A stretch of 64,000 nucleotides of DNA from Carbonactinospora thermoautotrophica (GTDB lineage: Bacteria; Actinomycetota; Actinomycetes; Streptomycetales; Carbonactinosporaceae), in contig NZ_JYIJ01000018.1 of assembly GCF_001543895.1 (NCBI RefSeq), positions 1 through 64,000 of the forward strand, given 5' to 3'. A model generated the notes under the pieces. The model searched no databases and was not told the DNA's origin. It saw only the letters and a program-made list of their open reading frames with translations. The position numbers were made by a program, and so were the translations under genes. This document shows positions 42,566-44,130 of this stretch, piece by piece; position 1 is the stretch's first letter; every line of letters begins with the position of its first letter.

Positions 42566-43198
42566 GTGACGGTTGAAAACCATGCCGGGCCCGCCAGGCC
42601 TGTCGTCGCCGACTTCTGGTTCGACCCCGTCTGCCCCTGGGCGTGGATCACCTCCCGATGGTTGCTCGAGGTCGAGAAGGTGCGCCCGGTGCGAGCGCGT
42701 TGGCACGTGATGAGCCTAGCGGTCCTCAACGAGGGCCGGGACCTGCCGGAGGACTATCAGAAGCTGCTGGCGGAGTCCTGGGGTCCGGTTCGCGTGTGCA
42801 TCGCCGCCCAGCAGGAGCACGGCGGCGACGTGCTCGGCCCGCTGTACACCGCGCTGGGCACGCGGTTCCACAACGAACAGCAGCCGCGTACCCGGGAGAC
42901 GGTCGTGGCCGCGCTGCGCGAGGCCGGCCTGCCGGAGCGGCTCGCCGACGCGATGGAGTCGACCGAGTACGACGAGGCGCTGCGCAAGTCGCACAACGCC
43001 GCGATGGATCAGGTCGGCACGGACGTCGGGACCCCGGTGATCAGCGTGGACGGCAACGCGTTCTTCGGGCCGGTGGTCACCCCGATCCCGCGCGGCGAGG
43101 CCGCTGGCCGGCTGTGGGACGGCGTGCTGCTGGTGACCGGCACCGACGGCTTCTTCGAGCTGAAGCGGACCCGCACCCGGGAGCCGATCTTCGACTAG
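42566..43198 (+). CDS. Mycothiol-dependent reductase homologue (Rv2466c/DsbA-like), CPWA variant
   Basis: The 210-residue thioredoxin-fold protein with a helical insertion aligns well by eye with mycobacterial Rv2466c: ADFWFDPVCPWAWITSRWLLEVEKVR, HVMSLAVLNEGRDLPEDY, SWGPVRVCIAAQQEHG and GTPVISVDGNAFFGPVVTPIPRGEAAG. As I recall, Rv2466c has an active-site CPWC motif. Here it is CPWA (Cys23, Ala26), leaving one thiol. It may work by a monothiol mycothiol-mixed-disulfide mechanism. GTG start at 42566. A 16-bp terminator stem follows. Confidence 0.83.
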   Translation: MTVENHAGPARPVVADFWFDPVCPWAWITSRWLLEVEKVRPVRARWHVMSLAVLNEGRDLPEDYQKLLAESWGPVRVCIAAQQEHGGDVLGPLYTALGTRFHNEQQPRTRETVVAALREAGLPERLADAMESTEYDEALRKSHNAAMDQVGTDVGTPVISVDGNAFFGPVVTPIPRGEAAGRLWDGVLLVTGTDGFFELKRTRTREPIFD

Positions 43199-43203
43199 CG
43201 GAA

Positions 43204-43249
43204 GGAAACGGGTGTGGAGCCACTCGCGGAAGACTCCACACCCGTTTCC
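43204..43249 (+). terminator. Terminator after the mycothiol reductase homologue
   Basis: A perfect 16-bp stem (GGAAACGGGTGTGGAG at 43204-43219, complement at 43234-43249) with a 14-nt loop begins 5 nt after the stop codon. Confidence 0.85.
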
Positions 43250-43300
43250 CGGGTCCGGGACTGTCCGAAGATCCCAAGTCCGACAGACGGTCCCGAGCCG

Positions 43301-43402
43301 TCACGTCACCCTGCGGCCTGCTGACGGGTCCTCGCGAATCGGGCGGCCACATCTGGCCAGGTAGTCGTACGGCGACTCCGGAAGCGTGTACAGCTCAGTC
43401 AC
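43301..43402 (-). pseudogene. sodF: Truncated sodF (iron superoxide dismutase) remnant, N-terminus only
   Basis: On the minus strand, GTG 43402 follows GAGGAGGGCGG and encodes M-T-E-L-Y-T-L-P-E-S-P-Y-D-Y-L-A. This is the characteristic N-terminus of Fe/Mn superoxide dismutases (xYTLPxLPYDYxALEP). After 16 residues the sequence turns to unrelated codons and stops at 43301. The catalytic body is missing and is not in the window. In Streptomyces coelicolor sodF lies next to the Rv2466c-like gene and near rpiB, as I recall, so the position is syntenic. The promoter and a perfect Nur box survive. Confidence 0.72.
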
Positions 43403-43423
43403 GAACCGCCCTCCTCGATCTTG

Positions 43424-43440
43424 TTGCAATATATTTGCAA
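43424..43440. promoter_or_regulatory. Nur (nickel-responsive Fur-family) operator, orphaned
   Basis: The sequence TTGCAA-TATAT-TTGCAA is a perfect match to the published Streptomyces Nur box tTGCaa-N5-ttGCAA. It overlaps a minus-strand -10 (TATATT, 43428-43433) paired with a -35 (TTGCAG, 43452-43457) at an 18-bp spacer. In Streptomyces, nickel-bound Nur represses sodF through such a site. Here the regulated gene is only a fragment. Confidence 0.8.
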
Positions 43441-43629
43441 TAGCATGCTGTCTGCAACAGGATCCAGGTAGAAACGATCAGCGGCCCCGCACGGCCCGTG
43501 CGGGGCCGCAGCTCCGTCCTTCGCCTCGCGTGATCCGGACGTCCGTACAGCGCCGGGGAAACGATCTCTGCGCGGCGTACGCCGGGGGACCTGCGAGCAG
43601 GAGCGCCGGCACCTGCCAGACTGCGCTCC

Positions 43630-44130
43630 ATGCGCGTATACCTGGGCTCCGACCACGCTGGATTCGAGCTGAAGAACCGCCTCGTGACCTGGCTTGCCGA
43701 GCAGGGCCACGAGGCCGTCGACTGCGGCCCCGCCGTCTTCGACCCGAAGGACGACTACCCCCCGTACGTGCTGCGCGCCGCCGAGCGCGTCGCCGCCGAC
43801 CCCGACAGCCTGGGCGTGGTGATCGGCGGTTCCGGCAACGGCGAGCAGATCGCCGCCAACAAGGTCCGGGGTGTGCGGGCCGCGCTGGTCTGGAGCGAGG
43901 AGACCGCCCGGCTGGCCCGCGAGCACAACGACGCCAACGTGATCAGCCTCGGCGCCCGGATGCACACCCCGGAGGAAGCGGTCGGGTTCGTGGAGATCTT
44001 CCTGGGCACCCCGTTCTTCGGGGAGGAACGGCACGTGCGCCGGATCGGGATGATCTCCCGGTACGAGGAGACCGGCGAGCTGCCGCCCCTGCCCGAGGAG
44101 GAGAGCGGCCCCGCCGGATCGCGCGGCTGA
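43630..44130 (+). CDS. rpiB: Ribose-5-phosphate isomerase B (RpiB/LacAB family)
   Basis: The 166-residue enzyme of the pentose phosphate pathway interconverts ribose 5-phosphate and ribulose 5-phosphate. The N-terminus MRVYLGSDHAGFELKNRL carries phosphate and substrate ligands. GVVIGGSGNGEQIAANKVRGVRAALVW has a glutamate in place of the E. coli cysteine, as in mycobacterial RpiB. HNDANVISLGARM is also conserved. The C-terminal 35 residues extend beyond the usual ~145 and are acidic. ATG 43630 has CAGACT 7 nt upstream. The next gene starts 9 nt after the stop. Confidence 0.9.
   Translation: MRVYLGSDHAGFELKNRLVTWLAEQGHEAVDCGPAVFDPKDDYPPYVLRAAERVAADPDSLGVVIGGSGNGEQIAANKVRGVRAALVWSEETARLAREHNDANVISLGARMHTPEEAVGFVEIFLGTPFFGEERHVRRIGMISRYEETGELPPLPEEESGPAGSRG

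Follow-up and report, generated by a model that had tools for sequence, protein, structure and literature searches.

The Gutted sodF Locus

The window, that is, the whole 64,000-nt stretch of DNA that was analysed, carries on its minus strand the two ends of a sodF gene. Its neighbours are rpiB on one side and, on the other, pepN together with a DsbA/Rv2466c-like gene. The features of the locus are as follows.

42566-43198 (+): DsbA/Rv2466c-like neighbour gene, convergent
43204-43249 (-): long hairpin with a perfect stem, likely terminator, possibly common to the convergent DsbA gene
43255-43296 (-): 5' stem-loop exposing part of the anti-sodN in its loop (fold prediction)
43266-43282 (-): anti-sodN, CGGACTTGGGATCTTCG, pairing with the leader TGAAGATCCCAGGTCCG of the sodN gene on contig C16 (predicted 17-bp helix)
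43301-43402 (-): resulting 33-codon ORF, TGA at 43303-43301, probably without a peptide function (no family match)
43306-43359 (-): last 17 codons of sodF and its stop (WPDVAARFARTRQQAAG-stop), shifted by +1 from the frame of the N-terminal codons (27 SodF C-termini compared)
43361-43402 (-): first 14 codons of sodF, VTELYTLPESPYDY, GTG start at 43402 (comparison with SodF)
43409-43414 (-): ribosome-binding site GGAGGG, 5' of the GTG at 43402 (read directly)
43424-43440 (-): perfect Nur box TTGCAAATATATTGCAA (TTGCAA-N5-TTGCAA), overlapping the promoter
43428-43457 (-): promoter-like pair TTGCAG-N18-TATATT (read directly), transcription is expected to start inside the Nur box or immediately behind it
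43630-44130 (+): rpiB-like neighbour gene, divergent

The promoter pair, the perfect Nur box, the ribosome-binding site and the SodF-like start had been pointed out in a first-pass annotation, and direct reading bears all four out. With one mismatch allowed, the 64 kb of the window contain no second match to the Nur box motif, and shuffled sequence leads one to expect 0.01. The Nur consensus is given as tTGCaa-N5-ttGCAA, and transcription of sodF in Streptomyces coelicolor is described as starting 38 nt 5' of the start codon (PMC3919588). Between rpiB and the Nur promoter, at window positions 43481-43509, lies a GC-rich inverted repeat, GCGGCCCCGCACGGGCCGTGCGGGGCCGC, perhaps a terminator or an insulator.

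The first-pass annotation had also described 16 SodF residues followed by unrelated codons. The SodF-like start stands, at a length of about 14 codons (VTELYTLPESPYDY; the host's intact SodF has MAVYTLPDLPYDY); the tail proved to be sodF's own last 17 codons and stop, one frame off. This C-terminal part starts one base after the N-terminal part, in the next frame, runs to the old sodF stop codon at 43308-43306 and resembles the end of the SodF from genome G010 (NWADVAARFSAASGNAAG-stop, also given as WADVAARFSAASGNAAG-stop). The missing middle corresponds to residues 15-186 in the numbering of the host's intact SodF, about 170 codons. The layout is that of one internal deletion, which would have removed the middle of sodF and kept both ends, out of frame. 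No Sod_Fe_C domain is encoded at the window locus, the sole PF02777 match of the genome lying on contig C13, and the 33-residue peptide has no match in Pfam or NCBIfam. The interval singled out at first, 43301-43457, covers the front and back ends of sodF; the 3' UTR and terminator (43305-43204), which constitute the main signal, were left outside it.

That sodF was gutted at its syntenic place, as had been proposed, is borne out by the finding that DsbA adjoins sodF in at least 16 of 29 sodF loci of the order (L129-L157; flanks short). DsbA-bearing loci were also collected from relatives; the best 80 of 494 come mainly from Nocardiopsis, Actinomadura and MAGs. None of these 80 has SodF in the flank, and therefore no close comparison can be drawn from them. 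In three such loci without SodF in the flank, from Actinomadura and a Streptosporangiaceae MAG, Nur-box-like sites (0-1 mismatch) follow the DsbA-like gene at a distance of about 35-70 nt (L045 4655, L081 4658 and L085 4650).

The 3' UTR and Its Match to a sodN Leader

In S. coelicolor, the small RNA s-SodF is derived from the sodF 3' UTR. As described by Kim et al., it is about 90 nt long, forms two stem-loops and contains a 19-nt anti-sodN, located at +19 after the sodF stop, which pairs with the first 18 nt of the sodN mRNA and shortens its life; s-SodF alone was reported to be enough to destabilise this mRNA (PMC3919588). The same RNA, under the name scr2634, and homologues of it were reported from RNA-seq and northern blots of three Streptomyces (Moody et al., PMC3765725).

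Positions 43296 to 43204, 93 nt in all, fold into two stem-loops at -54.4 kcal/mol (z = -4.77), and none of 200 shuffles was as stable. The only match in Rfam was to RF02827 (Scr6106), which scored 29.8 bits where the gathering score of the family is 52.5 (E-values of 0.18 and 0.077). An identity with this family was rejected because the match is below the gathering score and because s-SodF corresponds to scr2634. The sub-threshold match lies mostly on the terminator hairpin, and the Scr6106 model hit three other places in the host genome.

The host genome has two sodN genes, on contigs C16 and C19, both above the NCBIfam sodN cut-off. The C16 gene adjoins a SodX-like protease gene (the match is below the cut-off of that family), and its leader reads TAGTGT-CATCGAG-TGAAGATCCCAGGTCCG-TCGAAAGGA. 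The anti-sodN of the window pairs with this leader over 17 contiguous positions, 15 Watson-Crick and two G-U, at a predicted -29.8 kcal/mol. On the leader, the pairing begins at the second base past the likely start of sodN and ends immediately 5' of the ribosome-binding site. A helix of this energy was equalled by one of 5000 double shuffles, or two of 10,000 when the regions were narrowed, and foreign partners were weaker (-16.7 kcal/mol for the best of 63 sodN leaders, -19.3 for the best of 44 tails). The 15-nt core occurs in exactly two places in the 5.13-Mb host genome: the window 3' UTR and the C16 sodN leader. Paired with the 3' UTR of the C13 superoxide dismutase, the C16 leader gave -14.5 kcal/mol and the C19 leader -15.9.

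Other measures are less favourable. The strict Watson-Crick run is 10, with G-U inside the helix, and a G-U-tolerant run of 17 was found in three of 2000 shuffles. By whole-duplex energy over wide regions, 37 of 2000 shuffles were as low as the -70.8 kcal/mol observed, and a foreign tail reached -78.8; this was judged a poor statistic and replaced by the contiguous-helix energy, and both measures are reported here. The pairing is also weaker than that of most Streptomyces (-31 to -37 kcal/mol). The C19 sodN leader shows no match to the window tail (-13.7 kcal/mol), so that one of the two sodN genes, on C16, would be controlled and the other would escape the RNA. The C19 gene (L001 1459-1869) lies directly behind a RidA-like ORF (identified by eye).

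In Streptomyces-like genomes, the pairing occupies the same places but uses a different sequence (TGAGAAGACGATCACGAG with its complement): their sodN leader is GAGAAGACGATCACGAGG, and the sodF tail carries its complement. A Streptomyces-type anti-sodN was found within 160 nt of the stop in 22 of 30 parsed SodF loci; outside this count, genome G034 has 13 nt of anti-sodN overlapping the stop. The distance from the sodF stop to the anti-sodN is 24 nt in the window and 10-47 nt in the 22 intact loci. No anti-sodN was found directly behind the intact SodF of G004, G008, G010, G011, G029, G040 or the host's C13 gene, and G004, G008 and G010, the three Catenulisporaceae-like genomes in which both genes could be parsed, show no pairing. 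When the second half of the helix is compared by eye in an ungapped register, nine of 10 consecutive positions have changed on both sides and the tenth is now G-U; a gapped alignment might need fewer double changes. In this ungapped register, the joint change of both partners is the signature of a kept pairing. The host core finds no relative in the order: a search of 244 other genomes gave three single matches, one of which (L096) was inspected and shows neither sodN nor sodF there. The Streptomyces sequence proved to be a different one; the host is the sole genome of its family in the comparison set.

The Rest of the Proposed Circuit in the Host Genome

A genome check for sodN, other sod genes and nur, as the first-pass annotation had advised, returned the two sodN genes, one Fe/Mn-type superoxide dismutase and one likely Nur orthologue. 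The Fe/Mn-type enzyme, on contig C13, is intact and has its own perfect Nur box, without an anti-sodN tail. The first-pass annotation had taken loss of the Fe enzyme to imply reliance on SodN or another superoxide dismutase; because this Nur-boxed gene is present, neither a loss of the Fe-type enzyme nor reliance on SodN alone follows. Nor can the window locus be explained as a mere copy of the 5' end of an intact sodF, since its box spacer, leader and codons differ from those of the C13 gene and the remnant also keeps the SodF 3' end. Three Fur-family proteins are encoded in the host. The best PDB match of one of them (L008) is 3eyy, which we take to be S. coelicolor Nur, with an E-value of 2.9e-62 (the next is 1.4e-22), and this protein looks like the Nur orthologue. 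Just behind its gene lies a transposase-like ORF (by eye; L008 2079-2882, minus strand).

Similar Loci across the Order

Among 391 genomes of the order, 321 carry the Streptomyces-type s-SodF motif (at most one mismatch) and 354 have PF02777. From these, 36 places were taken, most of them chosen as having the motif away from a listed SodF, a genome without PF02777, or two sites; a few were ordinary. Fourteen of the 36 have a Nur box (0-2 mismatches) at a distance of 9-96 nt 5' of the anti-sodN with no SodF between (G029, G104, G201, G156, G178, G005, G247, G065, G160, G037, G186, G270, G387 and G011), and in 10 of the 14 the gap is 9-15 nt. A fifteenth locus, in G148, has a stub of the first 55 SodF residues between the Nur box and the anti-sodN. 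The figure of 15 is a lower bound, among the matches listed, and does not give a rate. The predicted pairing with the genome's own sodN is poorer in G387 (11 contiguous pairs) and in G011 (15). The DsbA gene is beside or near six of the 15 loci (G037, G148, G156, G201, G270 and G387), so some of them stand at the usual sodF place; it was not seen in the wider flanks of the other nine.

Five of the 15 genomes have no PF02777 match, namely G037 (locus L208), G160 (L205), G186 (L210), G270 (L212) and G387 (L213), which for G270 and G387 was deduced from their absence among the listed positives. Judged by their sequences, these five would hold an RNA switch without the enzyme that it was thought to serve.

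The trait was mapped on a sodN tree. It requires 13 changes when all 43 other rows are counted as negatives, seven of which are forced by starred, well-supported branches. With only the 21 checked negatives, there are nine changes (four forced), and the ten loci with 9-15 nt spacing give seven changes (three forced); G042, which has two anti-sodN sites of which one was inspected, and 21 other rows were excluded from the nine- and seven-change counts. A single clade for the trait was rejected (p = 1e-44). These numbers have to be read with the facts that the group was chosen for the trait, that sodN may recombine and that a change may be a gain or a loss.

Decay stages of SodF were also observed with an anti-sodN behind them, as C-terminal pieces and frameshifts (L191, L194, L196, L199 and L204). 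In all of these except L204, the fetched stretch contains no Nur box at up to four mismatches, beyond chance-like matches. At L248 (genome G011), a SodF at 1352-2141 shares 81% identity with the C13 enzyme of the host and 63% with Streptomyces SodF. It is divergent from a Nur box and a degenerate anti-sodN on the other strand, and is perhaps a replacement superoxide dismutase beside an old RNA gene.

A Probable Nur-Repressed Small RNA and Alternative Explanations

The reading favoured here, with a probability of roughly 0.8, is that the gutted sodF would now be a small-RNA gene under repression by Nur, made by one internal out-of-frame deletion and surviving the loss of its enzyme. In the presence of nickel, Nur would shut the window promoter. 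In its absence, a transcript of about 230 nt would be made and perhaps processed to about 90 nt. This RNA is predicted to pair with the leader of the C16 sodN gene as far as the ribosome-binding site, and the pairing may speed the decay of the mRNA, by analogy with the decay measured for s-SodF in S. coelicolor. The replacement enzyme would be supplied by the C13 Fe/Mn-type superoxide dismutase. Without nickel, the C13 enzyme and the window RNA would both be switched on from their Nur boxes and C16 sodN would be lowered by the pairing, the iron/nickel switch being run from two loci instead of one. A short RNA was among the products that the first-pass annotation had named, and it would best fit the s-SodF-like fold and the sodN match. 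The perfect Nur box, kept despite the lost coding part, counts in favour of a small-RNA gene. The weaker pairing, the unmatched C19 sodN and the unpaired Catenulisporaceae-like genomes count against it.

The alternative that survives best, itself unlikely, is a decaying pseudogene, in which the deletion is recent and the promoter, 3' UTR and sodN match have yet to erode. An out-of-frame deletion and a peptide without relatives agree with this, and purifying selection cannot be shown from a single genome. However, a decaying gene should lose its promoter too, as in the four decayed loci L191, L194, L196 and L199, where the fetched stretch shows no Nur box, whereas at least 14 genomes keep the Nur box and anti-sodN after loss of the coding part, and ten of them do so with nearly all dispensable parts gone.

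That the 33-residue peptide is the product, as had also been suggested, is very improbable despite the good ribosome-binding site and the start codon in place. The second half of the peptide is out-of-frame sodF, no family matches it, and this ORF is absent from, or replaced by another in, the other loci with the same circuit. Where the Nur box and the anti-sodN are 9-15 nt apart, as in 10 of the 15 loci compared, there is no room for a peptide before the anti-sodN. Hardly any credence can be given to the earlier proposal that the Nur box serves to titrate Nur, as a decoy. The operator is indeed perfect, but a single additional copy on the chromosome would bind away little of a repressor, and neither the 3' UTR fold nor its match to sodN would be explained. 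A misassembly that collapsed a full sodF at the window locus might be entertained as the comparison set includes no sibling genome, but is scarcely believable for a locus inside a 796-kb contig, with a C13 paralogue that differs from the remnant and is the only PF02777 match, and with the same kind of loss in other genomes.

Comparison with Known Systems

The window locus is a variant that belongs with s-SodF. The likeness lies in a 93-nt 3' UTR with two stem-loops, as in the s-SodF of about 90 nt with a terminator as its second, in an anti-sodN directly behind the coding end of sodF, 24 nt after the old stop, and in a pairing site in the C16 sodN leader that is where s-SodF binds sodN. On the other hand, the coding part is deleted in the window, both partners have another sequence, and the helix contains two G-U pairs. 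For the Streptomyces of Kim et al., a perfect complementarity of 16-19 nt is described (PMC3919588), against 15 Watson-Crick and two G-U pairs in 17, with a strict run of 10, in the window. The RNA s-SodF is made under Nur control; from the perfect Nur box and the likely Nur orthologue of the host, such control may be predicted for the window RNA.

One gutted case is already in print. For S. bingchenggensis, Kim et al. describe a sodF2 (SBI_01257) with a gutted coding region and a fairly good anti-sodN, and suggest that the pathway may persist where the enzyme has been lost (PMC3919588). As described there, sodF2 shares with the window locus a large coding deletion, a kept anti-sodN and a functional sodF without a good anti-sodN elsewhere. 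It differs in that its deletion is in frame and its anti-sodN nearly that of Streptomyces, whereas the window locus is out of frame, lies in a genome of another family and has a co-diverged target; this comparison is with sodF2 as described in print.

The free-standing loci of the order (G005, G029, G160 and others) share with the window a Nur box, an anti-sodN that matches their own sodN, a terminator and the absence of SodF. They have 9-96 nt from box to anti-sodN, whereas the window still has 14 + 17 sodF codons in this place; the locus nearest to it in form is G148 with its 55-residue stub. A 2022 review of 3'-end RNAs describes s-SodF as a processed fragment (PMC9438474). Among the titles and abstract beginnings listed from open-access papers, no report of a free-standing s-SodF gene was found. 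We lean towards the view that independent genes have arisen more than once from the sodF 3' UTR RNA in the Streptomyces order, in some cases as a nickel-sparing RNA. The enzyme would have been deleted, often down to 9-15 nt between the Nur box and the anti-sodN, and the promoter, anti-sodN and terminator retained; the window would be a deeply diverged case with a joint change of RNA and target. Such a repeated making of RNA genes, some of them without any Fe/Mn superoxide dismutase match in the genome, is the part most worth testing.

The birth of small-RNA genes is usually guessed. In this order, an intact mRNA, a gutted mRNA and a free-standing RNA gene all occur and share their operator and target; as these three stages stand side by side, the path from a 3' UTR fragment to an independent gene can be traced and tested. 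The loci suggest that s-SodF is worth keeping without SodF, in which case the textbook isozyme switch would become a nickel-sparing RNA. The circuit would then resemble RyhB/Fur of Escherichia coli, where a repressor of the Fur family, once loaded with its metal, silences the gene of a small RNA that lowers the mRNA of a superoxide dismutase using that metal, as described in PMC3919588. The difference is that RyhB and Fur deal with iron, and the window with nickel and Nur, through an RNA derived from an mRNA 3' UTR; no kinship in sequence is claimed. If this is true, the RNA in genomes without an Fe/Mn superoxide dismutase would serve to spare nickel, like RyhB for iron, with no swap of enzymes.
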